Source: Pseudoalteromonas viridis
GTDB taxonomy: Bacteria; Pseudomonadota; Gammaproteobacteria; Enterobacterales; Alteromonadaceae
Direction: 5' to 3'
Assembly (NCBI RefSeq): GCF_017742995.1
Contig: NZ_CP072425.1
Coordinates: 372,001-436,000 of the forward strand
DNA length: 64,000 bases
The notes beneath the pieces are model-generated. The model was not told the origin of the DNA. It did not search any database and worked only from the letters and a program-made list of their open reading frames with translations. Position 1 is the first letter of the stretch, and each line of letters opens with the position of its first letter. The position numbers and the translations under genes were made by a program. Positions 7,644-20,606 of the stretch are shown here, piece after piece.

Positions 7644-7706
7644 GTTTGTTTCTCCTATTGGTTATCTATTTTTCATTCTCCATGTTTTTTCAAATATGCA
7701 AGGCGC

Positions 7707-7730
7707 AAAAAAAAGGGGCCGAAGCCCCTT
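7707..7730 (-). terminator. Intrinsic terminator of the DNA-processing operon
   Basis: On the minus strand AAGGGGC-UUCG-GCCCCUU forms a 7-bp stem (7724-7730 with 7713-7719) closed by a UUCG tetraloop, followed by eight U (7707-7714, the first two overlapping the stem). It lies 4 bases after the stop of the Toprim gene and separates the recombination operon from hotspot 3 and traFHG. Confidence 0.92.
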
Positions 7731-7733
7731 GGA

Positions 7734-8807
7734 TCAGATATGAACTTTCGGAAAGCCTATGGCACCGTAAACATTCAGCACATCATTCCAATCCCAACTT
7801 TTCACGCCGAGTGACGTTGGTATCGGAGGGATCAAGACTTGTGTCAGAATGCCTTTTTGCCAGGCTTTTTTCTTGAGTTCATTCGCTGCATTCAGGCCGG
7901 TCTCAGAGAGATCGTGGTCTGCCCAGATGTACAGCATTTTCACATTACTTGGTGGTTCAAACCTAGCCAGTAGCGTTGCATTCACAACCGACCAACATGT
8001 TTGCCCCGTTGCTCTGGTTACCGCTAGGGCCGTTTCTATACCTTCAGAAACACCTAGGACTTCACCAGGCTCACCTATAGGAATGGCACCACCAGTGATT
8101 GTTCTGTCACTTGGTATCGGCATCATCTTTTTAGGCTTTTCAACCGGCGCTTTGAATCCATCTTCACTTAGGTAGATCCGATGAAACGTGGCCGAACGCC
8201 CTTGCTGAGTAACGATTTTACCTAGCAGCGCTGGGTAGCTATCGATAAACAGACCATCTTCATCATGGTAAGGCAAGCTTGGATGAAATCTCAGCACCGA
8301 ATCCCATTCAGGACGAAGCCGCGTAACAATGCCACGACGATGCAAGTAGTTCCAAACTGGTTGCGCACGAGTATCTGCAAGAGATAGCGTTTCTCCCCAA
8401 GTTTGATTCAAGCGATGGATAATCGCTTTGTCCTCGTCCTGCTTTCTAGCCTTCCAATCAACAGCGTTACGCGTTATTGCCCGAGAAGGTGCTTGTATTT
8501 GTCCGGGTTGAATACCTAGAACTTGGCCGATTGCTTCAATAGACTGAGCAAAGTTCCATCCATTAATCCAAGACAACAGTTCAAAGCCATCATGAAAGAT
8601 ACCGCAGGTGTTACAAACGCCACCTCCGGTATATTCAGCATCTTTGAACAGCCTAAAGCCATCACGACCGCCATGAACAGGACAAGCCACATGACGGCCT
8701 TTTCGAGCAATAGCGGCATCAAGTTCTGGCACCAACGCCGCCAGTATTTGAAGCCATTGGCCATTAAGATATGGCCTTACTGTTTCAATTTGTAAAGGTA
8801 ACGCCAT
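7734..8807 (-). CDS. Toprim / zinc-finger primase-like protein
   Basis: 357 residues. An N-terminal CHC2-type zinc finger is visible (C42, H45, C65, C68: ACPVHGG...VCNTCG). A Toprim domain follows in the second half, with GVSEGIETA (catalytic Glu) near residue 250 and the acidic WADHD near 290. This architecture is that of phage and plasmid primase-helicase N-terminal proteins; no helicase motor follows. By position (next to hotspot 3) it corresponds to s073 of SXT. It is the last gene of the DNA-processing region and is followed by a strong terminator. A role in priming transferred DNA is an inference. Confidence 0.8.
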   Translation of the reverse strand: MALPLQIETVRPYLNGQWLQILAALVPELDAAIARKGRHVACPVHGGRDGFRLFKDAEYTGGGVCNTCGIFHDGFELLSWINGWNFAQSIEAIGQVLGIQPGQIQAPSRAITRNAVDWKARKQDEDKAIIHRLNQTWGETLSLADTRAQPVWNYLHRRGIVTRLRPEWDSVLRFHPSLPYHDEDGLFIDSYPALLGKIVTQQGRSATFHRIYLSEDGFKAPVEKPKKMMPIPSDRTITGGAIPIGEPGEVLGVSEGIETALAVTRATGQTCWSVVNATLLARFEPPSNVKMLYIWADHDLSETGLNAANELKKKAWQKGILTQVLIPPIPTSLGVKSWDWNDVLNVYGAIGFPKVHI

Positions 8808-8895
8808 ATAACCTCCTTAAGTAAAAAGCCGACTCCTACCACAAGTGATAAAAGTCAGCTCTGGGCCTGCATTGAGCCGTTTGGTTAATGCAGGA
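8808..8895 (-). promoter_or_regulatory. Divergent leader before the Toprim gene
   Basis: An 8-bp perfect stem (CCTGCATT 8866-8873 with AATGCAGG 8887-8894, 13-nt loop) is followed on the minus strand by a weaker GACT/AGTC pairing and AAGGAGG before the ATG at 8807. It resembles the two-hairpin leaders further along but lacks the GC-rich core and the hidden ribosome site, so it may be a degenerate copy. Confidence 0.35.
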
Positions 8896-8898
8896 ACG

Positions 8899-9240
8899 TT
8901 AGTCAAGCTGGATACCATGTCGTCTTAATAGCCACATGATGGAGTCACGAAGCACATCAGGATCGACAACCGCAGCCATTGCGCAAACACGAAAGCAAAA
9001 TGGCGCTATTTCGTCATTCTGAATCCACGACAACACATCCTTTCGCAATCGAGTACTGACACGACCGTCCAGCAATACACGGATCGCATCCAATAGAATG
9101 CCTTCGCGTAACTGCCAGATTTCCGTGTCAGACCAAGTGACTGGGGCATCATCAAACTCAAATAGAAATTCGAGCTGTGATGATGTGTGTTGATGGGACT
9201 GCTTTTGTGATGGAGGAGAATGGGCAATGCGCCCATTCAT
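8899..9240 (-). CDS. Conserved ICE protein of unknown function downstream of radC
   Basis: 113 residues from the ATG at 9240, which overlaps the radC stop by one base (TGATG), so translation is likely coupled. Soluble and mostly helical by composition, with an acidic N-terminal third and a basic region containing RLRKDVLSW. I recognise no domain. The one-base overlap with radC and the shared operon suggest that it works with RadC or in the same DNA-processing step, but that is inference. Confidence 0.7.
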   Translation of the reverse strand: MNGRIAHSPPSQKQSHQHTSSQLEFLFEFDDAPVTWSDTEIWQLREGILLDAIRVLLDGRVSTRLRKDVLSWIQNDEIAPFCFRVCAMAAVVDPDVLRDSIMWLLRRHGIQLD

Positions 9241-9737
9241 CAAAGATAACCGCGTTCGGCAAGCGAAACACAGCCCTCGGATGCGACCACAACATGGTCA
9301 AGCGTTCGAATATCAACAAGTGACAAGGCGTCACGAAGTCGATGAGTAATGCGTTTATCAGCTTCACTGGGTTCAGGATCACCCGATGGATGGTTATGAA
9401 CCAGTATCACTGCTGCCGCATTAAGTTCTAGCGCTCGTTTTGTTACTTCCCTTGGATACACGCTCGCCGCATCTAAAGTGCCTTTGAACAGCTCTTCAAA
9501 TCGAATGACGCGATGCTTTGTATCAAGAAACAGCACACCAAAAACCTCGTGCTCATACTCGTGCATCAGTGTTTGCAGGTATGAGAACGCCGACGATGGC
9601 TGTTCAATTTTTCGACCTTTACTTAATCGACCACGGGCAAGCTTGAGCGCCATATCTAAGATATCCGCTTCAGTCACTTGCTCAGGAACGATATAAGTAC
9701 CGGTTTCTTCGCCAGCTAAGAACTTTTTGTTTTTCAT
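9240..9737 (-). CDS. radC: RadC-family JAB/MPN-domain protein
   Basis: 165 residues from the ATG at 9737. An in-frame TTG at 9749 overlaps the ribosome site GGAG and is rejected. The JAMM metal motif is intact: HNHPSGDPEPSEAD (His-x-His, Ser, Asp) near residue 115-128. The N-terminal helix-hairpin-helix of chromosomal RadC is missing, as is usual for RadC proteins on mobile elements. The biochemical role of RadC is unsettled; the old DNA-repair assignment came from a mutation in another gene. It is preceded by the best copy of the repeated two-hairpin leader. Confidence 0.9.
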   Translation of the reverse strand: MKNKKFLAGEETGTYIVPEQVTEADILDMALKLARGRLSKGRKIEQPSSAFSYLQTLMHEYEHEVFGVLFLDTKHRVIRFEELFKGTLDAASVYPREVTKRALELNAAAVILVHNHPSGDPEPSEADKRITHRLRDALSLVDIRTLDHVVVASEGCVSLAERGYL

Positions 9738-9804
9738 AGGAGTCTCCAAAAAAAAGCGGAGACGAACCCATGCCCTGACGGGGACGGAATCGTCCCCGCA
9801 GGGT
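9738..9804 (-). promoter_or_regulatory. Two-hairpin leader before radC (radC-RNA-like)
   Basis: Upstream stem: CCCTG (9773-9777) with CAGGG (9799-9803) and CGGGGAC (9779-9785) with GTCCCCG (9792-9798), 12 bp, one bulge at 9778, 6-nt loop. Ribosome-site stem: GTCTCC (9742-9747) with GGAGAC (9758-9763), 6 bp. The minus-strand GGAG of the ribosome site lies inside that stem, and the loop is a U-rich run. This is the strongest of nine such copies and resembles the published radC RNA motif. Confidence 0.8.
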
Positions 9805-9820
9805 GGTAAAGTTGATGTGG

Positions 9821-11476
9821 TTACTGAATTAACAGTTGTTGTGTTACTTCGAATAACTCACGCTTCAGATCTTTGACATCGTTAATCACAATGCTTTGAG
9901 GAAAGAATTTCTCAACACTGCGTGTTTGAATCCCTATTCCCAGAAGCTCAAAGCCACTTCGTCTGCACCGGTCAACAATGTCATGCGTAGCAGCCCAATC
10001 ATCTGGGTCACCATCCGTTAGCACTATCATTAGCTTTCGCTTCTGTTTTTGCGCTAACAAACTGTTTGCCGCAAACCACATTGCTTGTGCCATAGGCGTA
10101 CAACCTCGTGGTTTTTGGTCAAAACAGGCGGCCCGATGTCGAACCGATTGCTTGGGCAATAACGCGATAGAAACTTCCTGATGAATACCAGGAAAATAAC
10201 TGACCGCAGGTACAACACCCGGTATGCCTTCCAGTGCCATGGCCAAAGCCAAAGCGGCTTCATTGGCAACATGAAAGTACTTGCGATTACCTTCGCCAAT
10301 GGGCTTACCCATTGAGCCCGATATATCGACCAGCAAGTGCACAGCAGCATTGGGCGCAATGCGCGGCAGCCTTTGAATAAACAATCTCGATTCACCTGCT
10401 TGTGAGGCGGCAAGACGATGGGTTGCAACTCGAAGACCGTGCCTTTTGGCATGATTCCGATTGTCCTGACTGGACTGAACCATTCCCCTAAGTCGGGCTC
10501 GAATTTGAGCGGACTCAGACGCCGATAAGGTCAAGATGGCCTCATCACCCAACATAGCTTGCTCTGCTTGGGGCAAACTGAGTGGAGTGACACCCTGATG
10601 TCCTTCAGCTTGTTCCGACAACACTTCTGCCACTTGGGCAAAGGTATCGGGTTCAAACTGAGCGGCACTGGCCTCTAAGGCTTGTCGCAAATTGTCAGCT
10701 TGATCAGAGTTATCTGAATCCCCCGTTTCAGCAGCATCCCCCATTGCAGACGGTGCTGCTTCTGGGGTTTGACTGTCACTACTGTTATTGCTGTCATTAC
10801 TTGCATCTTGTCCCATGTCATTACCGTTATCAGCATCCGACTCATCCTGTGGTGGACGAGATTCTTCTTCCAACATGGCAACGATGGCATCGACAAGTTT
10901 TAGCACTTCACCTGTAGACGCTAGGCTAGGCACTACTGTCAGCATGGCGCTTAACCGGCTCATCGCTGCGGCAGGGAAGAGTTGTCTGACTCTTTCATCA
11001 ACAACTTGATACAAAGGCGTCAGTGCTTTCTGACCGAGAAAATGGCATCTCAAGCGGAACAACAACCATGCTTGCAAGTTAGATGCAGGCTCAAGCTGTT
11101 CAGGTACACACATTTGCTGTGTGTCCACCATGTACTCAATCACTTGCGAAATACTGCGCCGGGTTCCGGGGTAATCCTTTGCCAATTCGTTTTCAATGCG
11201 AACGTCCTCAATGATATTGAGAAGTGCCTTACGGATCGGTTTGGACGACGCCTTCTGCACCATGTCAAAATTGGTATGCCGAATATGCGCCGCTTCATGA
11301 GCCAGATAACCCCAAGCTATCTGTTGATAGTGTGGGTCGTCTGGGTTTGCTGTTGGGATCACAATCCGCTCACCATCGGTAAACGCATCTTGTCCTTGAA
11401 TAAGCACCTTCACACCAAACTTTTCGCCATAAGCGGCGGCAACGATTGGCAGTGCGTTTTTTAATGGATGATTCAT
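9821..11476 (-). CDS. CobT-like VWA protein with an N-terminal HExxH motif
   Basis: 551 residues. The C-terminal ~170 residues are a von Willebrand A domain with an intact MIDAS motif (DISGS near 383, a conserved Thr in GCTP, and TDGDPDD). The middle is acidic and low complexity (Asp/Ser/Asn-rich, ~210-265), like CobT of cobalt chelatase. The N-terminus has HEAAH at 60-64 within a short helix, the consensus of zinc metallopeptidases. With the MoxR/CobS-like AAA+ protein encoded upstream (13867-14826) it forms an AAA+/VWA pair; such pairs act as metal inserters or chaperones. No cobalamin genes are present, so a nucleoprotein-remodelling role is more likely here (inference). Confidence 0.8.
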   Translation of the reverse strand: MNHPLKNALPIVAAAYGEKFGVKVLIQGQDAFTDGERIVIPTANPDDPHYQQIAWGYLAHEAAHIRHTNFDMVQKASSKPIRKALLNIIEDVRIENELAKDYPGTRRSISQVIEYMVDTQQMCVPEQLEPASNLQAWLLFRLRCHFLGQKALTPLYQVVDERVRQLFPAAAMSRLSAMLTVVPSLASTGEVLKLVDAIVAMLEEESRPPQDESDADNGNDMGQDASNDSNNSSDSQTPEAAPSAMGDAAETGDSDNSDQADNLRQALEASAAQFEPDTFAQVAEVLSEQAEGHQGVTPLSLPQAEQAMLGDEAILTLSASESAQIRARLRGMVQSSQDNRNHAKRHGLRVATHRLAASQAGESRLFIQRLPRIAPNAAVHLLVDISGSMGKPIGEGNRKYFHVANEAALALAMALEGIPGVVPAVSYFPGIHQEVSIALLPKQSVRHRAACFDQKPRGCTPMAQAMWFAANSLLAQKQKRKLMIVLTDGDPDDWAATHDIVDRCRRSGFELLGIGIQTRSVEKFFPQSIVINDVKDLKRELFEVTQQLLIQ

Positions 11477-11536
11477 GGGAGTCTCCTAATCATTAGGGGG
11501 AATACTCCCTCAGCGGGAGCGTTTCCCCGCTGGGAA
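11477..11536 (-). promoter_or_regulatory. Two-hairpin leader before the CobT-like gene
   Basis: Upstream stem: 11511-11518 (CAGCGGGA) with 11525-11532, 8 bp (the last a G-U wobble in RNA), 6-nt loop 11519-11524, extended by 2 bp outside a bulge at 11510. The second arm differs from other copies: the region before the ATG contains CCTAATGATTAGG on the minus strand, next to GGAG, and GGGAG/CTCCC could pair around it. Confidence 0.65.
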
Positions 11537-11545
11537 TGTAAGTGT

Positions 11546-11986
11546 TTAAACCTGTGCTTTTAGCTTATCCAGATCGTATTTTTGACCTAACCAAGCCACC
11601 AATTGAGCTGGACTCTCGTGCTGCTCAAATGACGTTTTAAGCTGGTCTAAATTCAGGATGTCATCCAATGTCAGACCGTACTGGTCTTGTAACTGAGTAG
11701 ACACCTCGTGTTGATATTGCAGCCAGGCCCTCTCAAAAGCGGTTTGCTGCAATGCCATGTTTGGAACAAATACCATGGCCGTTACCCAAGCTCCTTGTGC
11801 GTCCGCATCTGCGATCAAAACAGGGTTCTTGGGGATCACGACACTATGTGTTGAGTACGACCGTTGTACTAACGTTCGACAACACGCCACTTCTGGTATC
11901 GATTCACTTTCAACCGCATCAGTCACACCACGAAAATGTGCTTCAAACTGGTTCAGTTGGCTGGGGTTATGGATGGTTGATTGCAT
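11546..11986 (-). CDS. Conserved ICE protein of unknown function
   Basis: 146 residues, soluble, no domain recognised. The sequence is Gln-rich with a helical C-terminal half (DQYGLTLDDILNLDQLKTSF) that looks like a protein-protein interaction region. The ATG at 11986 has AGAGGA 5 nt upstream, inside a hairpin. It lies between the DUF3150 gene and the CobT-like gene and shares their operon, so it may be an accessory of the AAA+/VWA pair; this rests on context only. Confidence 0.65.
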   Translation of the reverse strand: MQSTIHNPSQLNQFEAHFRGVTDAVESESIPEVACCRTLVQRSYSTHSVVIPKNPVLIADADAQGAWVTAMVFVPNMALQQTAFERAWLQYQHEVSTQLQDQYGLTLDDILNLDQLKTSFEQHESPAQLVAWLGQKYDLDKLKAQV

Positions 11987-12045
11987 AATTTCCTCTTACA
12001 TAGTTCAGAGGACATGCGCCCTTCAGGGCAACATGCCCTCAAGGA
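11987..12045 (-). promoter_or_regulatory. Two-hairpin leader before the 146-residue gene
   Basis: Upstream stem: CCTT (12020-12023) with AAGG (12041-12044), then AGGGCA (12025-12030) with TGCCCT (12034-12039), with one 1x1 mismatch and a 3-nt loop. Ribosome-site stem: TCCTCT (11991-11996) with AGAGGA (12007-12012), 6 bp, 10-nt loop; the minus-strand AGAGGA at 11991-11996 is the ribosome site of the ATG at 11986. Confidence 0.72.
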
Positions 12046-12047
12046 AG

Positions 12048-13001
12048 TTAGAAATAAAATGAGTTTGGTACAGTCGAACCAAGGTTTGGTCTGACGGTTG
12101 GTTGTGGTATTGCACGTAAGTTATCTGCCTGAGCAGATACTGGCTGTGCGGGTTTAGGTTCAGGTTTGGGCATCAGTTGTCTGATATCCAATTGACCTTC
12201 ACCATGCATTCTCATCTTGTCTGGATCAGACAAAATTAAAATGGTCGCCATTAGTTCGTGATAGAGATTGTCTGTCACAGGGCCGGTCTTCGGCAGACGA
12301 TCAAATAAATTGTCCATCGCTTCGACCATCGGCTGGACTCGATGATCCAGGAATGACAAACCATCCAACTTGTCTCTTAACCGCTTCATAGGATTAAGGG
12401 CTCGCTGGCTGATTTGATTCTTACCTGCAACGGAACGCTCAAACAGTTCATTGGCATCACGAGCCACCTCCCTAAAGAGGGTGTGTCCCATGCCATTGAC
12501 CTTGTCATCTAAGCCACCAGCTTGTTCAGCCGGTTGCATTCGATAGATGGCATAATCGAACTGAAGCCGTTGTTCCACGTCTTCGATGGGTGACAGCGCA
12601 CGCCGGATTGCATCTGCAAATTCCGGGTGTTTTGCAACCCAGTCAAACGTCACCTGGTCATAGTTGTCCAAGAACAACTGCTTGCACTCCGCAAACTCCT
12701 GACCGATCCGGTCAAGCTCTGGAACAATCTGATCAATTCGGTCCTCAGGGACGGCATAGCCACCTAAAAACCGCACACCGACTTGCTCACACAAGCGCTG
12801 CGCTTCTTTCTTAAGCCTTTCAAAGTTCGCCAATGCCTCTGGGTCGCAAATTTTTTTACTCCCTAAGCTTGCAACATCCTTCGGTGGAAGTTGGCTGCCA
12901 TTGGCTAATCTGAAATCTTCAGGCCTTAGTTTTTTTCTACCGCTCCAGATGGAACAGTCGATGTGACAAATCAAAAGTTTGTCGAGGGTTTGAATACTCA
13001 T
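12048..13001 (-). CDS. DUF3150-family protein
   Basis: 317 residues, matching by eye the DUF3150 proteins that accompany CobS/CobT-like pairs on ICEs and plasmids. Largely helical, with no membrane segment. The C-terminus after about residue 265 is Pro-rich (PKPEPKPAQPV) and ends Ser-Phe-Tyr-Phe, a tail shared almost exactly with the exonuclease of the same region. Function unknown; the constant co-occurrence with AAA+/VWA genes suggests an adaptor or substrate protein of that machine (inference). The ATG at 13001 has GAGG upstream within a weak hairpin. Confidence 0.75.
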   Translation of the reverse strand: MSIQTLDKLLICHIDCSIWSGRKKLRPEDFRLANGSQLPPKDVASLGSKKICDPEALANFERLKKEAQRLCEQVGVRFLGGYAVPEDRIDQIVPELDRIGQEFAECKQLFLDNYDQVTFDWVAKHPEFADAIRRALSPIEDVEQRLQFDYAIYRMQPAEQAGGLDDKVNGMGHTLFREVARDANELFERSVAGKNQISQRALNPMKRLRDKLDGLSFLDHRVQPMVEAMDNLFDRLPKTGPVTDNLYHELMATILILSDPDKMRMHGEGQLDIRQLMPKPEPKPAQPVSAQADNLRAIPQPTVRPNLGSTVPNSFYF

Positions 13002-13067
13002 AGTGCATCCTCATGCGAGATGGGGACGCACCGCTCCCAACAGGAGCAATGGCCCCCATTTGGGTGG
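13002..13067 (-). promoter_or_regulatory. Two-hairpin leader before the DUF3150 gene
   Basis: Upstream stem: CCCAA (13036-13040) with TTGGG (13060-13064), then 13042-13047 with 13052-13057 including two positions that become G-U wobbles in the minus-strand RNA, 4-nt loop. Ribosome-site stem: 13006-13012 with 13017-13022, 6 bp with one bulge, covering GAGG. Less regular than the copies before radC, bet or exo, but in the same place and order. Confidence 0.6.
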
Positions 13068-13099
13068 TAGTAGTTGACGCGCTAATGGCAACATCACTG

Positions 13100-13867
13100 T
13101 CAGAAATAGTAATTTTGCGAATTAGGCGACGATTGGTTGAGATCGATTTTCACAGGCATTAAGTCCAGTGCTTCAGCTATCGGGCGAACCCGCTCTAAAT
13201 CACTGCCTAAAAGCCTCAATACATCTTTTTCCAACTTCAGTTGGTCGGATACTTCTATCCCCTCAGGACTCGCTACTGTGAGCGAACACAGTGGTGGTAA
13301 TTGACGCTTAAAGGCCAGTAACAGCAACAATGGCCACGGGCCATCATCCGTGTTAACAATGCCAGCGCCTTCACCTGACACCATGCTGATTTGATTGGTA
13401 TTAGGTAATCCTCTTTTGCAAAACCCTAATGACCATGCTCCAATCCTGACCTGGTTATCATCAATAACAGCCAAGCCATAGGCTTCAAGCAGCTTTGCGA
13501 TATCGAACAACGCTTTTTGTGCCAGCGAGATTTGGCCATTGACGTCCTTGCGAGTACGAAACTCCCAACTGACGTTATTGGCGCACGCGACGCTATCTAG
13601 CGCATTTGAGAGTTCAAATGGCCGCCCTTGATGATCAATGCCGACCTGTCCAACCAATCGATAACCCTTGTTGATTTTCTCATTGATTCGTCGGTCTACT
13701 TCAGCGTTAGGATCAGTCGAATCAATCAATCGCTGCTGCGACAATTGACCAGCTTTTCCAAACCGAACTTCAATCTCCTGGGTATCTGATCCAACGTAAA
13801 TGGCCCATTCTTTGGCTGTCCCATCAGAATGACTGTAACGGTAAAGAGCAAAGCACTTTTCCATCAT
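13100..13867 (-). CDS. WGR-like domain protein
   Basis: 255 residues from the ATG at 13867, which overlaps the cobS-like stop (TGATG) with GGGAGG just upstream; a TTG three bases earlier is less likely. The first ~80 residues look like a WGR domain (KEWAIYVGSDTQEIEVRFGKAGQ, then a helix with INEKINKGYRLV), a nucleic-acid-binding module known from PARPs and MolR-type proteins. The rest is not recognised. It ends Asn-Tyr-Tyr-Phe, similar to the Ser-Phe-Tyr-Phe tails of two neighbours. Coupling to the AAA+ gene suggests joint function. The WGR call is by pattern only. Confidence 0.65.
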   Translation of the reverse strand: MMEKCFALYRYSHSDGTAKEWAIYVGSDTQEIEVRFGKAGQLSQQRLIDSTDPNAEVDRRINEKINKGYRLVGQVGIDHQGRPFELSNALDSVACANNVSWEFRTRKDVNGQISLAQKALFDIAKLLEAYGLAVIDDNQVRIGAWSLGFCKRGLPNTNQISMVSGEGAGIVNTDDGPWPLLLLLAFKRQLPPLCSLTVASPEGIEVSDQLKLEKDVLRLLGSDLERVRPIAEALDLMPVKIDLNQSSPNSQNYYF

Positions 13868-14826
13868 CAATCCTCCCAGTGGTCACCGAAGACATCAGCG
13901 GCAATACGGTGAATGGCTTCACGTTGCTCCAACTCAGCACGAGCCGTCAAAGACCGAACCAGTGCATACTCCACTGCGTTAGGAGCGCCTTTAAAAGCAA
14001 GTGTTAACTTTGCCCAGCGCACCAAGGTCCGAGTGGACATGGTGATACTAAGCTCTGCACCGCCATCCGTGCCCCCAATAAAAAGACGACGGATGTCAAC
14101 AGCCACTTTCACCATTTTTTGGCGAAAGACTTCTGGCAAGCCAGGCGCAACGTTCTCCAGAATGGCTTCCTCTACAGAAGGCTCTGCATAGGTCGCTTCG
14201 ATGATTCTAAAGCGATCAAGGAAAGCCAAATTCTGTTGGAGCACACCTTGATACAAGCCCGTTTGGTCACCGCTGCCCGCACTGTTGCCGGTTGCGATAA
14301 AACGAAACTTGTTATGTGGCATGATGATCTCACCGCCATTTTGTGCGATGACCAATGGGGCACCTTCCAAAATGTCATTGAGCCCAGCCAGTTCAGCAGG
14401 CTCAGCAAGATCCATTTCATTAATGATCAGCAAATGGCCATGCTTTACAGCCAGTGCCAGCGGTCCATACACAAAGGTCATGTTGCCATTAACCAGCGTG
14501 TGGTGACCGATAAGATCGGACAACTCCAATCGACCGTGTGCAGTAATTTGCTGAACAGGCCAATTCAATCGAGAAGCAACTTGGCAAATTAGCGAGGTCT
14601 TACCGCATCCGGTGGGGCCTGTAATATACAAACCGTCACCGTCTGGGTGAGACAAGAACGCCAATACGTCACGTAAGTCTTCTTTTCTAAAAACGTACTC
14701 GTCCTTGCGAACGGGAATGTTTGGATGGGTAGTGTCGGCACCAAATCCTTCCAGAACGAAAGCATCAGGAGCCGGGACATTAAACGCTTGATTCACTTGA
14801 ACCAAAAATGGGGATTGTTCAGTCAT
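13867..14826 (-). CDS. CobS/MoxR-like AAA+ ATPase
   Basis: 319 residues from the ATG at 14826 (GAGG 9 nt upstream); the open frame extends to 14943 but that part overlaps the repeated leader and is rejected. The Walker A motif GPTGCGKTS lies near residue 70, Walker B is LLIINEMD near 130, and a sensor-1 Asn is in FIATGNSAGSG. This is the MoxR/CobS branch that works with VWA partners such as the CobT-like protein at 9821-11476. Known in SXT as the cobS-like core gene. The protein it remodels is unknown; recombination genes flank it. Confidence 0.85.
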   Translation of the reverse strand: MTEQSPFLVQVNQAFNVPAPDAFVLEGFGADTTHPNIPVRKDEYVFRKEDLRDVLAFLSHPDGDGLYITGPTGCGKTSLICQVASRLNWPVQQITAHGRLELSDLIGHHTLVNGNMTFVYGPLALAVKHGHLLIINEMDLAEPAELAGLNDILEGAPLVIAQNGGEIIMPHNKFRFIATGNSAGSGDQTGLYQGVLQQNLAFLDRFRIIEATYAEPSVEEAILENVAPGLPEVFRQKMVKVAVDIRRLFIGGTDGGAELSITMSTRTLVRWAKLTLAFKGAPNAVEYALVRSLTARAELEQREAIHRIAADVFGDHWED

Positions 14827-14888
14827 GGTAAACCTCATCTGTTTTGACGAGGCCCCATGCCCCAACAGGGAATGAAGTCCCCGTCGGG
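14827..14888 (-). promoter_or_regulatory. Two-hairpin leader before the cobS-like gene
   Basis: Upstream stem: 14861-14871 with 14878-14888, 11 bp when two A/C oppositions are read as U-G wobbles in the transcript, 6-nt loop. Ribosome-site stem: 14833-14839 with 14845-14851, 7 bp including one wobble, 5-nt loop; it contains the GAGG ribosome site. Keeping pairing through wobbles supports an RNA structure read from the minus strand. Confidence 0.75.
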
Positions 14889-15008
14889 TGGTGTGTTGAT
14901 TGTGGTATGGCTGTGTATATAAGAGTTCAGCTCGCTCTATCATTCGTACCCAGCATTGGCTACGAGTGAAACTGCTTTCTGATGCACTCGATGTAAGCGC
15001 ATGAGAAA

Positions 15009-15026
15009 GGAGCCGAAATCGGCTCC
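15009..15026 (-). terminator. Hairpin after exo, weak terminator
   Basis: GGAGCCGA (15009-15016) pairs with TCGGCTCC (15019-15026). On the minus strand the stem is followed by TTTCTC, a poor U-tract, so termination would be partial. It lies 10 bases after the exo stop. The 120 bases from here to the cobS leader contain a TATATA-like hexamer on the minus strand near 14915-14923 and otherwise nothing I can name; a separate promoter for the cobS-radC group is possible. Confidence 0.5.
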
Positions 15027-15035
15027 AAGTGAACG

Positions 15036-16052
15036 TTAAAAGTAAAATGAGCTCGGCGAGTCACCTGGCAGAACCAAGTTCTCTTGCTCAAGACTGATTT
15101 TGATTGGTGTTTCAACGGGCTGATCTGGCTTATTGGTGCTGATGCGCAACCGCTCTTGTGGCGATTTTCGGTAAGTAGCTAAAACCTGTTCATCCAGCTC
15201 GCCTAACTTATCGGTGGCCAATTGCTTATAGTCCACCGTGCCCGCCATCATGTAGCGACTGAGTTTGACCCCAGCATAGTCGGCATGAGCGTAGTTACCC
15301 ATCATAGCGACCAATTTTGACTGAGCGTCTCGCATTTCCTCTTTCAAAGATTTAATGTGATTTTCCAGTCGAACCACTTCGGCATGTGCTGAGCAATACT
15401 GGCGGGACAGCGATGTCCAGCGGTATTGGGCTTCACCCTTGGGAACAAAACAATCTTGTTCAGGGCATTTTGACGGTTCTTTTTTGGTCTGTACTAACTC
15501 CCAAAACTGAAGCGCTGTTTCTTGCAATTCAGTTAAGAACGCCGCGTCTCGTTGTATTTCAAACTCAATCAGTTGATCCTCAAAATAGAATACCAACCAA
15601 CCACGCGTGCTATTGGCGACCAGTATTTGATGCTGTACTTGCACCCAATACAACTGGTACGCCTCGCTTTGTTCTCGGTGAGCTTGCACATCCTCAAAAA
15701 CTGACTGGCAAGGACATTTCAGTTCAACGGGTTCGCCCGCATCGTTGATGCCATCAAAGCTGGCTCGAAAGATTGCGTTATGATCGGCTTCTGCACATAA
15801 CGGCAGAAGAAAGTCATTATGCGCATTCTCAAATGCTCGCCTTGCTTGAGGCTCCAACCTTATACCGCGAAGCACATTTGGATTATTCGACAGGTCTTCC
15901 GGTAATACGAATCCGGTTTTTTCTGCCCATAATCGCCAAGGTGTTTTGTAGGGTGAACGCCCCATAATAATTGGGGCTTCAGATGCCGTAACCCCTGCAA
16001 TGCGCCACTCGTGCCATGCAGGAGTACGTTGTGATAGGTCGATAACCTTCAT
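15036..16052 (-). CDS. exo: Exo, YqaJ-type lambda-exonuclease-like alkaline exonuclease
   Basis: 338 residues, the length of the characterised SXT exonuclease. YqaJ-fold catalytic residues are visible: the Glu in GIRLEPQA (~65), the Asp in RASFDGI (~96), and the E-x-K of VELKCP (~110). The enzyme resects one strand of double-stranded DNA from an end so that Bet can anneal the single strand; the SXT Bet/Exo pair promotes recombination between ICEs. A coiled coil occurs around 220-250. The last residues are Ser-Phe-Tyr-Phe, shared with the DUF3150 protein. GGAGAC before the ATG is inside a hairpin. Confidence 0.93.
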   Translation of the reverse strand: MKVIDLSQRTPAWHEWRIAGVTASEAPIIMGRSPYKTPWRLWAEKTGFVLPEDLSNNPNVLRGIRLEPQARRAFENAHNDFLLPLCAEADHNAIFRASFDGINDAGEPVELKCPCQSVFEDVQAHREQSEAYQLYWVQVQHQILVANSTRGWLVFYFEDQLIEFEIQRDAAFLTELQETALQFWELVQTKKEPSKCPEQDCFVPKGEAQYRWTSLSRQYCSAHAEVVRLENHIKSLKEEMRDAQSKLVAMMGNYAHADYAGVKLSRYMMAGTVDYKQLATDKLGELDEQVLATYRKSPQERLRISTNKPDQPVETPIKISLEQENLVLPGDSPSSFYF

Positions 16053-16105
16053 ATTGTCTCCTTTGAGGGGGAGACTCCCCCGAAGGAGAGAACTCCCCTT
16101 CAGGG
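16053..16105 (-). promoter_or_regulatory. Two-hairpin leader before exo
   Basis: Ribosome-site stem: GTCTCC (16056-16061) with GGAGAC (16070-16075), 6 bp, hiding the minus-strand GGAGAC. Upstream stem: 16082-16088 with 16095-16101, 7 bp including one wobble, 6-nt loop, extended by CCC (16079-16081) with GGG (16103-16105) across a one-base bulge. Confidence 0.75.
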
Positions 16106-16113
16106 TTAAGTGG

Positions 16114-16257
16114 TTACTTTGCAGCTTGTGCTAACGCTGTTTGGTGCTGAACAACACTTGCTTGAACCGAATCAATTGCCGCTTTACCGGCTTGAATCGA
16201 ACCTACGACAAGGGCAACAACCAATACCAAGCGAAAAAGTGAGGCTGATTTAGTCAT
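16114..16257 (-). CDS. Small single-membrane-span protein between bet and exo
   Basis: 47 residues. The start MTKSASLFR is followed by a hydrophobic helix (LVLVVALVVGSIQA, ~10-23) and a short Ala/Gln-rich tail ending AQAAK. Either a signal-anchored inner-membrane peptide or, if cleaved after the Ala-rich region, a small periplasmic peptide. GGAG lies 7 nt before the ATG inside a 10-bp hairpin. SXT has a small gene (s066) at this position. A membrane peptide within a recombination operon is unexpected; its role is unknown. Confidence 0.7.
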   Translation of the reverse strand: MTKSASLFRLVLVVALVVGSIQAGKAAIDSVQASVVQHQTALAQAAK

Positions 16258-16317
16258 GGAAGATCTCCAAAAAAAAGACGAGACCTTCCCCCTGACGGGA
16301 GAATAATCCCGCCAGGG
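16258..16317 (-). promoter_or_regulatory. Two-hairpin leader before the 47-residue gene
   Basis: Ribosome-site stem: 16258-16267 with 16280-16289, 10 bp including one wobble, 12-nt loop with a U-run; the GGAGA ribosome site spans the stem-loop junction. Upstream stem: CCCTGACGGGA (16290-16300) with TCCCGCCAGGG (16307-16317), 11 bp with one wobble, 6-nt loop. Its U-run loop and CCTGACGGG core closely match the radC copy, so the two are probably homologous repeats. Confidence 0.78.
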
Positions 16318-16339
16318 TTAGTAAAATGAATGCGTGGCG

Positions 16340-17158
16340 CTAAGAAGCTAAAGGCTGTGAGAGCGCTTTGGCTGCTTGTTGTTGTGCATTAAATATTTCT
16401 TGTTTCGCAAACGTCAGTTCAACACCCTGAAAATGTTCATTGGCATATTCCAATGCACTATTCCAAGCGTTTGAAGCTTCCGCCCGCTCGATAAGCTTGT
16501 AAACAAGCCCTCGGGTTCGATCATCAACTTGCTCGGGTGGAATCACAGGTGGCTCAACAACGTGTGTTGCTTGGCCTTCGATAATTCGCTCCGCTTCGTC
16601 TTGATCGAAAATTCCCACAAAGCCAAACGCAATGCGGGAACACTGGATCATGGATTTATGCCTTAGCATTCGCTTAGTGTGCGTCTGCCATGGACCATCT
16701 ACCCGGTAAGGGCCATTTTTGCCGTTACCTTCAAAAGGTGGTCGATAGACTTCATCCAGATACTCAGTGATTTTGACTGGGTGCGAACGGTCGCGCCGGT
16801 AGATGATGCATTCCATCCATTCAGGGCATTCTTTCGCGCCATCCAGTGAGACTTTGTTTTCTGAAGTCTTAAACTCCATGCCATCAAACTGGTCGTGTTG
16901 ATTGATGATGCGAGACCATCCATCGACACCTACCACTGGAATAATTCCAGCTTGCTTATCAGGGAACGCAAAAATCTCTTTGGTGAAAGGGTTCAAGCCG
17001 TACTGATCTGCAACCACCAAGAGCGCCATCATCTGCTCATTGGTCGGTGCACTACCGTCACGTTGCTTGAATGCTGTTGCTTTTAGGGTATCGAACAACT
17101 TGTTTGGATCGACACTAAAGCGCTCAGCAAAGCGTTGGATTAGCTTTGGTTTTTCCAT
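16340..17158 (-). CDS. bet: Bet, RecT/Redbeta-family single-strand annealing protein
   Basis: 272 residues from the ATG at 17158, the known length of SXT Bet; a TTG at 17173 would overlap the ribosome site GGAG and is rejected. The phage recombinase Bet signature is visible: the N-terminal LLVVADQYGLNPFTKEIFAF, then VVGVDGWSRIIN and a C-terminal region with the typical WQTHTKRMLRHKS. It anneals single strands produced by Exo and mediates recombination between related ICEs. Lies between ssb and the small membrane gene in the same operon. Confidence 0.95.
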   Translation of the reverse strand: MEKPKLIQRFAERFSVDPNKLFDTLKATAFKQRDGSAPTNEQMMALLVVADQYGLNPFTKEIFAFPDKQAGIIPVVGVDGWSRIINQHDQFDGMEFKTSENKVSLDGAKECPEWMECIIYRRDRSHPVKITEYLDEVYRPPFEGNGKNGPYRVDGPWQTHTKRMLRHKSMIQCSRIAFGFVGIFDQDEAERIIEGQATHVVEPPVIPPEQVDDRTRGLVYKLIERAEASNAWNSALEYANEHFQGVELTFAKQEIFNAQQQAAKALSQPLAS

Positions 17159-17218
17159 TGTGGACTCCGACAATCAAAGTGGGAGTCTGACCCTGACGGG
17201 AAAGTACTCCCGGCTGGG
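17159..17218 (-). promoter_or_regulatory. Two-hairpin leader before bet
   Basis: Ribosome-site stem: GACTCC (17163-17168) with GGAGTC (17182-17187), 6 bp, holding GGAG. Upstream stem: CGGGA (17197-17201) with TCCCG (17208-17212), 6-nt loop, extended by a G-C pair and CCC/GGG (17191-17193 with 17216-17218) across two mismatches. It shares the CCCTGACGGG core with the radC and 47-residue-gene copies. Confidence 0.78.
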
Positions 17219-17237
17219 TTAAAGCGTTTTCGCTCGG

Positions 17238-17657
17238 TTAAAAATCTGGTTCAGGATAAGTTTGTGCCCAATTAGTTTGGGAGCTCGCATCATCCGCCGG
17301 TGATGGCTCAGATGCTTTGTTCACATTATCAAGAAGCAGAAACTCGTCCGCGTCCACTTCGGTCAATCGATGCTTAATGCCATCTTTCTCCCATGAGCGC
17401 GTGCGCTGGGGCCCTTGAACAAAAAGCTTCGCTCCTTTTTGGATCAAATCTTTTGCCCTTAGCCCTAACTTAAATCCACCACGATCTCGAAAAACGACCC
17501 GATGCCATTCCGTATGCTCTTTGAGCTCATTGGATTGACGGTCGCGCCATTTCTCAGAAGTGGCCAGCGAAATGCTGGTCACCAAATCACCTGATGGATA
17601 GGCTCGCGTCTCTGGCTCAGAGCCAACGTAGCCTATCAGTGTTACTTGGTTTTTCAT
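17238..17657 (-). CDS. ssb: Single-stranded DNA-binding protein
   Basis: 139 residues with the OB-fold pattern of bacterial SSB: MKNQVTLIGYVGSEPETR, then a strand ending WHRVVF and KGAKLFVQG. The C-terminal linker is acidic and ends TYPEPDF, close to the DDIPF tip that recruits partner enzymes. It probably coats transferred single strands and cooperates with Bet and Exo. Second gene of its operon, 15 bases after the preceding gene, with a plain GAGGAG ribosome site and no hairpin leader. Confidence 0.95.
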   Translation of the reverse strand: MKNQVTLIGYVGSEPETRAYPSGDLVTSISLATSEKWRDRQSNELKEHTEWHRVVFRDRGGFKLGLRAKDLIQKGAKLFVQGPQRTRSWEKDGIKHRLTEVDADEFLLLDNVNKASEPSPADDASSQTNWAQTYPEPDF

Positions 17658-17672
17658 GATGTTCTCCTCGTC

Positions 17673-17999
17673 TTAGTTGAACTCTGTGCACACAGTCGCT
17701 TCTACCCGGCTGGGCAAAGAAGACTGACGACGCAGATAGGTTGGTATTTCGAGTAAAGCCATGTCGTACTGATGTGGCTCTTTGTAAAACGCAGATGTCA
17801 AACAGGGCATACCAGGAGCTTTAGGCACTGCCATTGGACGACGTTTTGGTGTTGGTGTGAGCAACCGCTTGATTTGAGTAAATACAAATCGAAACGGGCG
17901 CACGCTTTGACGAGCAAGCAATCGCAAAAGCGACCAGCTCAGTTTTGCAAGCAACATAATGCCTGCGATTTGGATAATAAATCCGAAGATATATTCCAT
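17673..17999 (-). CDS. Small membrane-anchored protein heading the ssb operon
   Basis: 108 residues: one N-terminal membrane helix (about 3-30, GFIIQIAGIMLLAKLSW...), then a strongly basic juxtamembrane stretch (RQSVRPFRF, KRLLTPTPKRRP) and a soluble tail. No domain recognised. The basic region would face the cytoplasm and could contact nucleic acid or lipid. It is the first gene downstream of the intergenic region shared with the plus-strand s063-like gene, and carries an 11-bp ribosome-site hairpin. Confidence 0.7.
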   Translation of the reverse strand: MEYIFGFIIQIAGIMLLAKLSWSLLRLLARQSVRPFRFVFTQIKRLLTPTPKRRPMAVPKAPGMPCLTSAFYKEPHQYDMALLEIPTYLRRQSSLPSRVEATVCTEFN

Positions 18000-18063
18000 T
18001 GGTGACTCCTTAATTTGGTTGTGAAGGAGTCACCCCAACTGGGGAAAACTCCCCCAGTTGGGT
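18000..18063 (-). promoter_or_regulatory. Two-hairpin leader at the head of the ssb operon
   Basis: Ribosome-site stem: 18001-18011 with 18024-18034, 11 bp perfect, 12-nt loop; the AAGGAG ribosome site is fully inside. Upstream stem: 18035-18040 with 18056-18061, then GGGGA (18041-18045) with TCCCC (18050-18054), 4-nt loop, one bulge at 18055. The longest ribosome-site stem of the set. Confidence 0.8.
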
Positions 18064-18365
18064 GGTGAAAAAGCGAACCGTAAGGAACGCATAGTTGAGC
18101 ATGTAGAAACATGCAGGCTATTTGTTTAAGGAGGCTAGCTACCTCTTAGTGCCACTGAGAAAACTCAGCAGCGGGCTTCCTTTGAGCTCATGCTCTCAGG
18201 CGCAGATATCACTGAAACAGATCAGCAATATTTAATAGTCAGTTTAACCGTCTTATCCAGACAGGATAGTCAGAAAGATGCTCAATTCTTCCACCTAGCT
18301 GAAAGGCCATTACCGCACAGAGGATTAGGCTAGGGACTGATTATTGTCATATCAGGAGCAAACTT
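18064..18365. other. Divergent intergenic region between the ssb operon and the s063-like gene
   Basis: About 300 bases with no credible reading frame. It must hold the promoters of two divergent transcription units. In SXT this region is a SetCD-responsive promoter site, but I cannot identify a SetCD box by eye. A small repeat GCATGT...ACATGC lies near 18090-18115, and CTGAT/ATCAG flanks the area just before the plus-strand ribosome site (AGGAGC near 18354). Confidence 0.5.
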
Positions 18366-18968
18366 ATGGCCCAAGCAAAACCCAATTATTCAAAACCCAT
18401 CTTTGAACAATCATTCACAATTAATAGCTTACAGGCGCAACGTGTCGTTGACCGTGTTTTTAGACGGACGGTCAGTGCGCTCTACGGAATCGATGTCATC
18501 CTACGCATCATTGGCGATGAGAACGAAATTGATGAAGTGGAACAGATCATTAGCCAGCTGATCGAGGATTGCGCTAAGGCGGTAGACAACGAACAAGCTC
18601 GTTTGGACAAACTGATGGAGTCCAACGGAATCGATGAAGTACCTGACTACACCGATCCGATTACCTTCAACGCCAAAATCAGCTCGCCTCAGGTTGGCCA
18701 GTTTGTTGGCTTAGTGCGCAAACTCGATGCGTTGATGATCTCAATGGACACACTCTGGTTATCTAGCGTGCTTAGCAACAAGCAACGTGTTGATGGCAAC
18801 TACGCATGGCAACAGCGCATTATCAAACTTGCACGACGCATTATTGATATCGAAATTCGAGCACGAAAATCAGCCCAAGCTAAGGGTAAAGAAGCAGAAG
18901 TTGAACAAGCGGTGCCTTCAACCGATGACGATATCACTGAAGAGGAAACAGATACCCCCGCCAACTAG
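18366..18968 (+). CDS. s063-like conserved ICE protein (AcaB/DUF1845-like)
   Basis: 200 residues, plus strand, between the ssb operon and hotspot 4, the position of s063 in SXT. The protein is helical and charged, without membrane segments, and ends in an acidic tail (DDDITEEETD). The family appears to be DUF1845, renamed after AcaB of IncC plasmids; AcaB is described as a regulator, but I rely on memory and weak pattern for that. AGGAGC lies 8 nt before the ATG. Transcribed away from the ssb operon and into hotspot 4. Confidence 0.75.
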   Translation: MAQAKPNYSKPIFEQSFTINSLQAQRVVDRVFRRTVSALYGIDVILRIIGDENEIDEVEQIISQLIEDCAKAVDNEQARLDKLMESNGIDEVPDYTDPITFNAKISSPQVGQFVGLVRKLDALMISMDTLWLSSVLSNKQRVDGNYAWQQRIIKLARRIIDIEIRARKSAQAKGKEAEVEQAVPSTDDDITEEETDTPAN

Positions 18969-18989
18969 CCAGCTAGGCTCCCATCACAC

Positions 18990-19008
18990 AGCCCCTCTCG
19001 AAGGGGCT
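18990..19008 (+). terminator. Weak terminator-like hairpin after the s063-like gene
   Basis: AGCCCCT (18990-18996) pairs with AGGGGCT (19002-19008) over a 5-nt loop. The following sequence (TGAGACTGTTG) lacks a T-run, so it may only pause transcription. It marks the left edge of hotspot 4; the AT-rich 200 bases after it lead into the peptide gene at 19219. Confidence 0.4.
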
Positions 19009-19218
19009 TGAGACTGTTGAAAATTTCTAAAAATACAATTAGAACTGTTGTAGAGTTTATTCGAGTAGACGTAGGCAAGAGCAAAGAGCACCGCAACCTT
19101 CACCAGCGAATCAACAAATACGATAATTTGGCAAATAACAGATAGCTTATTAAGCTAAGTTAGATTAATTTATATAAGAGTTGTACTTCAAATTAAGATA
19201 GCATAAAGGAGAAGAGCT

Positions 19219-19389
19219 ATGCACAGTGATTTAAATAACGCAATTACACCAAAGACTGATTCTGCAGGAGAAGTTTTTACTCGTGAGGTGTTGAAGTTGA
19301 GCGAGCTAGACTCTGAATTATTGTCCGATGTATCAAATATGTTCGGTAAGTGGTTTGAAACTGATCATTGCGATAAAGACATTCGCTAA
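19219..19389 (+). CDS. Putative RiPP precursor peptide
   Basis: 56 residues, with a strong ribosome site (AAGGAGAAGAGCT before ATG). The N-terminal half is polar, then comes a leader-like acidic helix (LKLSELDSELLSDVSN), reminiscent of leaders bound by RiPP enzymes, followed by a short C-terminal segment containing Phe, Gly, Lys, Trp, Phe, His, Cys and ending DKDIR. It is the first gene of a four-gene plus-strand unit with an LRR protein, a JmjC-type oxygenase and a radical-SAM/SPASM enzyme, a typical setting for a ribosomally made, modified peptide. No double-Gly cleavage site, transporter or protease is visible. The core boundary is unknown; residues near Trp45, Phe46, His50 and Cys51 are the obvious targets. 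Confidence 0.6.
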   Translation: MHSDLNNAITPKTDSAGEVFTREVLKLSELDSELLSDVSNMFGKWFETDHCDKDIR

Positions 19390-19400
19390 TTTTTTATTGA

Positions 19401-20606
19401 ATGCTTCAATCCCTGCATGTTATATCAGGCTTGGTTCGAAGAAGCTCTGGTGAGACAATCTTTATCGATGCCCTAAAAGCTCTGGGCATCGATTTAAGTT
19501 TTAATAGTCTATACGATAAAAGCCTTGTAACGAATAACTTAGAACATCTTGTCGTTGTGGTTATTTTGCCTATTTTGGGTGATAACGACCTAACGGATGA
19601 AGTGCGTAATGGCATTGCAAATCTCACATCTCTTGATAGTCATCGGAAGTGCAGCATTGTAGTTGTCGCGCAAGGCGATCGCCATGAATCCGATGAGTTG
19701 GTTACGCGTGACACTCCATTTAGCATCAAAGTTCGTCACTTGTTCAGTTGTTTCGGGAACTTCGAGTTGTTGGAAAAAAAACTGGATCAATTTACTGCAA
19801 CTGCCCTTGCTAGCGAAATTTATGATTATTGCAATGCAACGAACATTCGTGATGTATTAGAAATAAACAGACTTACTCAAATTTTATCCAGGGCACCGAA
19901 ATGGTTAGTGCGCAAGCGCCTGCTTGATTTTTACGATCCATACTCTGGTGTTAGTCTGTTGAAACATTTTGATCGAGCTACACTGAACCGGATCGCAGCG
20001 CATATTCAAACAATCAGCCCACAGATTTTGAAGATAACTCATGCCTCTTTAAATGATAGAGCGTTAGATGAGCTGGGTGATGCACTCAATGCTAATGTGC
20101 TTGATCTTGGGAGTAACAATTTTTCTTGGGATAGGCTTCTTCCGAAACTGAGTCAATGTCGCTGGCTTAACTTGGCAGCGAACAGCCTTACACAGATTCA
20201 GCTACCGCTTCTTTCACAAAATATTGAGCAACTCTATTTGCACAAAAATGATATTTGTGAATTTACCACAACGCTCGGTCATGTGGAAAGGCTAAAGTCA
20301 CTGAGTATATATCGAAATCGAGTAGAGGTTTTCGATTGGCCAGCAGGGCAAATGATGCTTGAGAACCTAAATCTTGGAGCAAACCCTATATCATCTCTAC
20401 CCGATACACTAAGTGACTGTGTCACCTTGAGACGTTTGGGGTTGGCTAGAACTCAGCTTTCAACTTTGCCTGAATGGCTCTTTTCTATGCCAAACTTACA
20501 TGAAATAGATATTAGTTATATAGAAAATCAGATTCCGGCAACACAGCTCTCTCACTTACGCGCTCAGCGCGTTTCGTTAATTACTCGACCTGGTTTAATT
20601 TTATAA
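19401..20606 (+). CDS. Leucine-rich-repeat protein of the putative RiPP cluster
   Basis: 401 residues. The C-terminal ~190 residues hold about seven irregular leucine-rich repeats (LNLAANSLTQI, LYLHKNDI, LSIYRNRV, LNLGANPISSLP, LGLARTQLSTLP). The N-terminal ~200 residues look alpha/beta with hydrophobic strands (LEHLVVVVILPILG, KCSIVVVAQG) but no P-loop. No signal peptide. It starts 11 bases after the peptide gene without a clear ribosome site, and its stop overlaps the next start by one base (TAATG). A scaffold or substrate-recognition role for the modifying enzymes fits; so would an immunity or sensor function. Neither is shown by the sequence. Confidence 0.75.
   Translation: MLQSLHVISGLVRRSSGETIFIDALKALGIDLSFNSLYDKSLVTNNLEHLVVVVILPILGDNDLTDEVRNGIANLTSLDSHRKCSIVVVAQGDRHESDELVTRDTPFSIKVRHLFSCFGNFELLEKKLDQFTATALASEIYDYCNATNIRDVLEINRLTQILSRAPKWLVRKRLLDFYDPYSGVSLLKHFDRATLNRIAAHIQTISPQILKITHASLNDRALDELGDALNANVLDLGSNNFSWDRLLPKLSQCRWLNLAANSLTQIQLPLLSQNIEQLYLHKNDICEFTTTLGHVERLKSLSIYRNRVEVFDWPAGQMMLENLNLGANPISSLPDTLSDCVTLRRLGLARTQLSTLPEWLFSMPNLHEIDISYIENQIPATQLSHLRAQRVSLITRPGLIL

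Follow-up and report, generated by a model that had tools for sequence, protein, structure and literature searches.

Two-hairpin leaders with an alternative pairing precede DNA-processing genes of an SXT/R391-type element and may act as translational switches

The stretch of DNA analysed here (the window; 64,000 nt, positions 372,001 to 436,000 of contig NZ_CP072425.1) is part of one contig of the 5.55-Mb Pseudoalteromonas viridis genome and represents an integrative and conjugative element (ICE) of the SXT/R391 type. We found that nine genes of its bet-exo operon are each preceded, on the minus-strand transcript, by a leader of two hairpins, as an earlier note had proposed (Table 1). Between 9.2 and 18.1 kb the window is ~97% identical to SXT/R391-type elements, and whole-length matches to this stretch occur in 4 of 72,556 plasmid records (three from Proteus mirabilis, including pR997, and one from Vibrio alginolyticus) and in 7 of 5426 complete Escherichia coli genomes. 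One account of SXT describes a single large, SetCD-activated operon that starts at s089 (PMC4344509). Judged by position, the 108-residue gene would be s089 and the first gene of the operon, and most of the nine leaders should therefore sit within one polycistronic message. Terminator-like hairpins with T runs lie on the minus strand at 15009-15026, between exo and cobS, and at 7713-7730, after the Toprim gene; what has been published as one operon may comprise two transcripts.

Read 5′ to 3′, each leader contains arms A and B, which form hairpin H1, and arms C and D, which form hairpin H2, followed by the AUG. Arm D, the 3′ arm of H2, carries the Shine-Dalgarno (SD) sequence or ribosome-binding site (RBS) and runs into the AUG. 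In the nine window leaders the folding energy of H1 ranges from -12.6 to -25.6 kcal/mol and that of H2, folded alone, from -3.2 to -17.4 kcal/mol; the weakest H2 belongs to the cobT leader, in which the end of H1 and the C arm overlap, and it does pair in the whole leader. When full leaders are folded, H2 takes up the SD region in eight of nine; the earlier note had counted seven or eight hidden binding sites. The exception is the DUF3150 leader, whose best fold already pairs A with C (written A:C below). The sequence CCCTGACGGG (plus strand) is common to the radC, 47-residue and bet leaders, the three copies that had been said to share one. The radC and 47-residue leaders have a U8 run in the H2 loop, whose length seems to vary among SXT relatives, seen as shifts in an ungapped comparison.

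Members of the SXT family have nearly identical leaders. One C-G pair of the cobS leader is U-A in both pR997 (L006) and genome G692 (L151). Long lists of differences for some radC, exo, 47-residue and 108-residue copies look like shifts of the ungapped comparison and were not used. Four genes had been described as lacking a copy, and they do: there is no room for a leader before the ssb, WGR-like and 113-residue genes (a 15-nt gap or an overlap), and the 91 nt upstream of the Toprim gene contain none.

Table 1. Leaders in the window and the stretch that they serve. Positions are those of the window; MFE, minimum free energy; R3, covariance model described in the text.
Feature	Positions	Strand	H1	C arm	D arm + ATG	A:C (kcal/mol)	R3 E-value	Remark
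radC leader	9735..9803	-	9773-9803	9756-9772	9735-9747	-19.5	4.1e-7	
CobT-like (VWA) gene leader	11474..11534	-	11507-11534	11493-11506	11474-11489	-11.7	0.12	weak R3 match
146-residue gene leader	11984..12043	-	12019-12043	12007-12018	11984-11996	-16.5		A:C near balance with A:B + C:D
DUF3150 leader	12999..13064	-	13036-13064	13020-13035	12999-13014		8.2e-6	whole-leader MFE is the A:C fold
cobS leader	14824..14888	-	14860-14888	14846-14859	14824-14839	-18.0	0.0032	
exo leader	16050..16105	-	16078-16105	16066-16077	16050-16064	-14.9	4.7e-4	
47-residue gene leader	16255..16317	-	16290-16317	16277-16289	16255-16268	-12.3	1.9e-6	U8 loop
bet leader	17156..17218	-	17191-17218	17177-17190	17156-17171	-11.3	0.012	
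108-residue gene leader	17997..18062	-	18034-18062	18021-18033	17997-18011	-13.3	1.8e-5	
Stretch served by the nine leaders	9240..17999	-						108-residue gene, ssb, bet, 47-residue gene, exo, cobS, WGR-like gene, DUF3150, 146-residue gene, cobT-like, radC

We characterized the distribution of the leaders with covariance models in which only A:B and C:D were modelled and A:C was not used. Because MAFFT alignments of mixed leaders misregistered H1, the first model was built from four alike leaders and refined twice by iteration, yielding R2 (18 leaders, two from the window) and R3 (76 leaders, five from the window); the E-values of these models are rough. Across the bacterium's own genome, where 150 of 589 first-look candidates were scored, R2 gave six matches at E<=1, all within 9.7-18.1 kb of the window; five are leaders and one is an opposite-strand shadow, and the transfer genes in the window had no match. 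R3 recovered eight of the nine window leaders at E<=0.2 in a 712-kb search. The 146-residue leader was missed by both models, yet it has the same folding.

The same leader, in quite different letters, stands before most genes of the homologous operon in an IncC plasmid (L001), in a plasmid from Aeromonas (L002) and in V. alfacsensis pVA249 (L003). With strict filters in both searches, R2 matches at E<=0.001 occur in 17 of 369 genomes drawn from the class, and R3 matches in 16 of 398 drawn from the phylum, the P. viridis genome being included in each. At E<=0.01, whole plasmid records yield 24 matches in IncC pS21, 26 in Aeromonas pKAM339_1, 27 in a V. alginolyticus plasmid, 14 in pVA249, 8 in pR997, 5 in an IncHI1 plasmid and 3 in a P. 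aeruginosa megaplasmid, counts that include opposite-strand shadows (one in pS21, two in pKAM339_1, one in pR997); four other plasmids with related or distantly related genes yield none. The matches are clustered, and further ones occur in many islands. The earlier note had called nine copies in one region, each before one gene, unusual. The repetition with one copy per gene holds, but nine is not the maximum, since relatives reach 24-27. The V. alginolyticus plasmid (NZ_CP014052.1) has two leader operons, an SXT-like one at 147-156 kb (7 matches) and an IncC-like one at 177-209 kb (20 matches).

The leaders are tied to gene starts. In pS21, between 54.5 and 81.8 kb, a match ends within 5 nt of the start in 20 of 36 annotated genes. 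A total of 275 matches was obtained in 37 sources. Of the best 150, 145 end where a reading frame begins, with ATG as the start codon in 142, compared to 16.5% of random positions. Two sets were taken for further analysis: 137 leaders, being the best 150 minus 5 without a reading frame, 3 with non-ATG starts and 5 repeated sequences; and 102 leaders, for which 130 matches gave 111 with a reading-frame start and 109 distinct ones, of which 7 were dropped (minority strand of the locus, or non-ATG start). Grouped by single-linkage blastp, the proteins behind the 137 distinct ATG leaders form 77 families, of which 53 are singletons. The genes served, whose functions rest on annotation, include those for RadC, DUF3150, a CobS-like ATPase, Bet, exonuclease and SSB by annotation or reading, and for DUF3577, ArdC-type anti-restriction proteins, RecT and DNA methyltransferases by Pfam, while 4 of 10 leader-bearing proteins tested had no Pfam match.

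Several observations were made beside this survey. Strong leader matches at 8325-8384 of L001 and 7552-7611 of L002 end without an annotated gene or a reading frame of 40 codons, and are possibly short unannotated genes or remnants. The cobS (8906-8979) and DUF3150 (13741-13814) leaders of L001 share at least 74 identical nt that comprise the entire H1 and the greater part of C, suggesting that leaders have recently been copied from gene to gene. Related genes in a plasmid of Moellerella wisconsensis (pXJ22MSE3-1, L004) are without such leaders; another repeated element, TAAATYTATTAA, often stands shortly upstream of a gene start there (30 matches with at most two mismatches versus 5.6 expected; sites include 3563, 4544, 5324, 6929, 10011, 11373, 13257 and 14692). 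A cobS-based scan of genome and viral contigs was swamped by P-loop ATPases; its sole close locus was a 55% relative on a short viral record (L022), and the loci were not used.

The two hairpins covary. In 76 model-aligned leaders, 92.4% of cells are paired, and of the 22 pairs in the model 19 change on both sides. Covariation scores 0.485, compared to 0.144 (sd 0.008) for shuffled and at most 0.064 for slid sequences. Thus the covariation across SXT/R391 and IncC elements that the earlier note had suggested looking for is present, with compensatory changes in both A:B and C:D. Because the alignment was fitted to the structure under test, covariation cannot settle the matter by itself; independent evidence comes from the position before AUGs and from the genome-wide specificity. 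An SD-like site is at least three-quarters paired in 78 of 102 leaders, which places the RBS in a helix in one fold. Fewer than half of the leaders (39 of 102) have a paired start codon.

These helices could in principle belong to the DNA. GC-rich inverted repeats before genes of a conjugative element would suit a single-stranded DNA hairpin, a promoter or a recombination site, and the energy of the whole-leader fold gives the coding strand no more than a mild advantage (64 of 102). Yet the leaders keep a fixed position relative to the AUG, 79 of 102 have a stabler A:C on the coding strand, paired columns contain 106 G-U against 31 A-C cells (in an alignment that favours G-U), and a simple scan found no sigma-70-like promoter at the leaders. 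The strand preference of A:C and of the whole fold speaks for RNA, as the earlier note had argued, and we regard a DNA-level element as highly improbable.

Arm A, taken as the 5′ arm of H1 plus its loop, is complementary to arm C, the 5′ arm of H2, of the same leader. Each leader accordingly has two exclusive folds: A:B + C:D, where the start is hidden, and A:C, where it is free. In the radC leader of the window, for example, GCGGGGACGA is complementary to UCGUCUCCGC, and in pVA249 GGUAAACCU is complementary to AGGUUUACC. The RBS-hiding H2 of the earlier note stands, but the note had overlooked the A:C pairing, which makes the arrangement a candidate two-state switch.

We measured the specificity of A:C by exchanging C arms between leaders. 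In 42 leaders, pairing with the own C arm gave -13.85 kcal/mol and with another's -8.69 kcal/mol; in each of the four elements taken by itself, p was <=5e-5. In the 102-leader set, with within-element permutations limited to the 11 sources that have at least four leaders, p was <=0.0005 in six (L001, L002, L003, L089, L092 and L099), 0.002 in L090, 0.007 in the window and 0.008 in L100; the islands L089, L092 and L099 played no part in spotting A:C. For 137 leaders the energies were -16.2 and -10.66 kcal/mol, with p at 5e-5, the lowest value that 20000 permutations can give. Leaders that are orthologous are not independent of one another, and the within-element permutations address kinship only in part.

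Compared to hairpin-preserving shuffles, A:C has a mean z of -2.79 (p<=0.05 in 84 of 102 leaders) and of -3.04 in the larger set (117 of 137). The control pair B:D shows no effect (z -0.26), indicating that the A:C effect is not a mere by-product of A:B + C:D or of inverted repeats becoming perfect. The H1 loop contributes specifically: with its own loop, pairing to C reaches -16.13 kcal/mol, versus -13.21 kcal/mol with equal-length loops of other leaders (Wilcoxon 1e-20; 134 of 137 leaders testable), even though neither hairpin needs the loop bases used in A:C. The bases of arm A alone give -9.81 versus -7.69 kcal/mol. In the alignment fitted to A:B + C:D, three of five measures put the A:C columns above all 500 shuffles; the other two are reached by 2 and 286 of the 500. 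These tests identify a conserved alternative pairing that would free the RBS.

The fold that is predicted for the complete leader is nevertheless A:B + C:D in 134 of 137 cases, and in 93 of 102 it persists when 60 nt of flanking sequence are included at both ends. These folds are what one would expect of a static damper of translation, in which H2 lowers initiation, H1 protects or insulates the mRNA and A:C has no function. We consider such a damper fairly unlikely, because A:C, but not B:D, is specifically kept between unrelated leaders, including the loop bases that the hairpins do not require. When D is removed, A:C becomes the best fold in 102 of 137 leaders, compared to 36 of 1370 structure-preserving shuffles. 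In the window, removal of D gives A:C in seven of nine leaders, the 47-residue and 108-residue leaders being the exceptions, and the DUF3150 and 146-residue leaders are near balance or in A:C even with D.

On this computational evidence, we think it probable that the leaders are autonomous two-state translational RNA switches in the mRNA, one for each gene. In the proposed mechanism, the ground state would be OFF, with A:B and C:D formed and the RBS, sometimes also the AUG, hidden. In the ON state, which A:C would represent, arm A and the H1 loop would capture C, leaving D single-stranded, while B would close on itself as a small CCC..GGG hairpin. C would then serve as sequestor and A as anti-sequestor, and H1, through B, would decide whether A is available. 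The cell would most likely make this choice during transcription of the leader, before D exists, or through a factor that opens or blocks H1.

Several results weigh against such a switch. At equilibrium the OFF state is stabler by ~9 kcal/mol on average, so that reaching ON requires a trigger or a kinetic route. In 101 leaders the median barriers on nested paths, which are upper bounds, are 14.7 kcal/mol from A:C to A:B + C:D and 18.9 kcal/mol from A:B to A:C. Spontaneous exchange of a formed H1 during transcription hence looks slow in these calculations unless it is started from the loop, a pseudoknotted route that nested models cannot represent. No conserved ligand pocket was seen and no factor was found. 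Without D, 35 of 137 leaders still do not prefer A:C. Covariation in the A:C columns is modest (75.3% paired versus 71.5% in shuffles, with one of five measures no better than shuffles), and two four-leader sets give weak permutation results (L097, p=0.04; L094, p=0.13). The window's DUF3150 leader has p=0.62 in the hairpin-preserving shuffle test, because the automatic split fails where the MFE is already A:C. The barriers also predict that both states would be long-lived, and the decision would then be made as the RNA emerges or be imposed on H1.

A decision during transcription could alternatively act on RNA polymerase. In this mechanism, A:C followed by the U-rich H2 loop would terminate or pause transcription before D is made, and A:B would be the antiterminator. 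The seven positions after A:C are 40-56% U, a U4 run occurs within nine bases in 35 of 102 leaders, and the radC and 47-residue leaders have their U8 runs; this U-richness keeps an attenuator or pause site among the rivals. We judge it quite improbable, as 67 of 102 leaders have no U4 run, the U-richness may merely be avoidance of G in the loop, terminating before every gene of an operon would be costly, and an antiterminator A:B would yield a message with a hidden RBS. Coupling to an upstream ribosome, or to an erm-like leader peptide, was also considered. An upstream frame of at least 60 codons exists for 98 of 102 leaders, and its stop lies anywhere from an overlap (3 cases) to 289 nt away; upstream genes below 60 codons were ignored, making some of these distances too long. 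The variable distance speaks against coupling to the upstream ribosome, and no search for leader peptides was made.

The leaders might instead be read in trans. An RNA-binding protein encoded by the element or the host could recognise H1 and repress all the genes at once, A:C being the default ON state. Up to 27 copies per element share a constant H1 frame, ACCC..GGGG..CCCC..GGG, and such a protein would be compatible with a switch. However, no candidate was found, and arm and loop sequences differ among the copies of one element; we hold this explanation to be very unlikely. The same sequence differences argue against a single antisense RNA acting on all copies. Beside the operon, a divergent gene at 18366-18968 (plus strand) corresponds by position to s063 and shares 53-57% identity with the divergent genes that occupy this place in IncC plasmids and in plasmids from Aeromonas. 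Its product falls in a remote AcaB/DUF1845-like family and is perhaps a DNA-binding regulator of the operon. As a trans factor for the leaders it was rejected: the family flanks many leader operons but was not found beside all, and it also flanks the leader-less operons of L004 and L135.

The radC RNA precedes radC and anti-restriction genes, and the leaders share its location before DNA-handling genes of mobile elements. The earlier note had likened them to this motif and had suggested running its Rfam model, and here the proposal failed. The radC RNA model (RF01754; threshold 40 bits) finds nothing in the window, either at the gathering score or, over 7000-20000, at E<=10; it has no match in L001-L003 at E<=5, none at E<=1 in 20 of the 29 loci L060-L088 and none in 60 relatives. 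Its architecture of 149 positions, with a GCUGACGUUGUCAGC-type hairpin, is not that of the leaders. The radC RNA itself occurs in 5 of the 398 phylum genomes (11 copies; not in the P. viridis genome), and in 5 of the 11 copies an R3 leader follows 9-21 nt after its end. By eye, a leader-like hairpin pair with an ATG follows three more copies, and none follows the remaining three. Where it follows, the two-hairpin leader lies directly between the radC RNA and the start codon, and this adjacency suggests that the leader could be an expression platform for the radC RNA.

No Rfam family reached its gathering score in the window or at a leader in the sources searched. Relaxed thresholds gave two unrelated sub-threshold overlaps, HCV_SLVII (E=0.56, L003) and ROSE_3 (E=0.24, L074); a ROSE-type RNA thermometer was set aside, as the latter was the one match at a leader in 20 loci. 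Searches of an open-licence library that omits most subscription journals found no description of the leader.

We tentatively suggest a wider possibility, that proteobacterial conjugative elements hold a parallel layer of control at the RNA level. An unnamed bistable leader, present in up to ~27 copies per element, would set a long-lived ON or OFF state for each DNA-processing or establishment gene at the birth of the mRNA; upstream sensor RNAs such as the radC RNA would bias it, and the leader would be their missing expression platform. In the island ICEHin1056, a conserved module of replication genes is reported to play a part in transfer (PMC3739013), and SXT/R391 ICEs and IncC plasmids are described as important carriers of resistance genes (PMC4344509, PMC7826253). 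If the leaders are switches, genes that handle incoming DNA in SXT/R391 and IncC elements would be gated by an RNA class outside Rfam cut-offs, transcription of the operon need not equal protein, the unexplained radC RNA would gain a physical partner, and more than 100 sequence-diverse, compact two-state RNAs would become available for folding studies.

The proposed mechanism resembles the sequestor and anti-sequestor logic of translational riboswitch and attenuator platforms, where mutually exclusive helices govern access to the RBS. Unlike those platforms, the leaders have no visible aptamer, can reach some two dozen copies in one element, in front of unrelated genes, and use the 5′ arm and loop of a ~30-nt hairpin as anti-sequestor. 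The hok-like type I toxins have metastable mRNAs. As in those messages, mRNA folding would control translation; the leaders, in contrast, serve many ordinary operon genes and not one toxin with an antitoxin RNA. The bet-exo operon of SXT/R391 and IncC elements, activated by SetCD or AcaCD, comprises the same genes on the same transcript, and the accessible portions of its accounts (PMC4344509, PMC3118119) treat transcriptional control and the enzymes, with no leader RNA described there. A further neighbour is the radC RNA (RF01754; Weinberg et al. 2010, PMC2864571), which Rfam labels as cis-regulatory and which is likewise found in Pseudomonadota and located in the same regions of elements. 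It has 149 positions with other hairpins and other conserved bases, whereas the two-hairpin leader is a separate element downstream of it.

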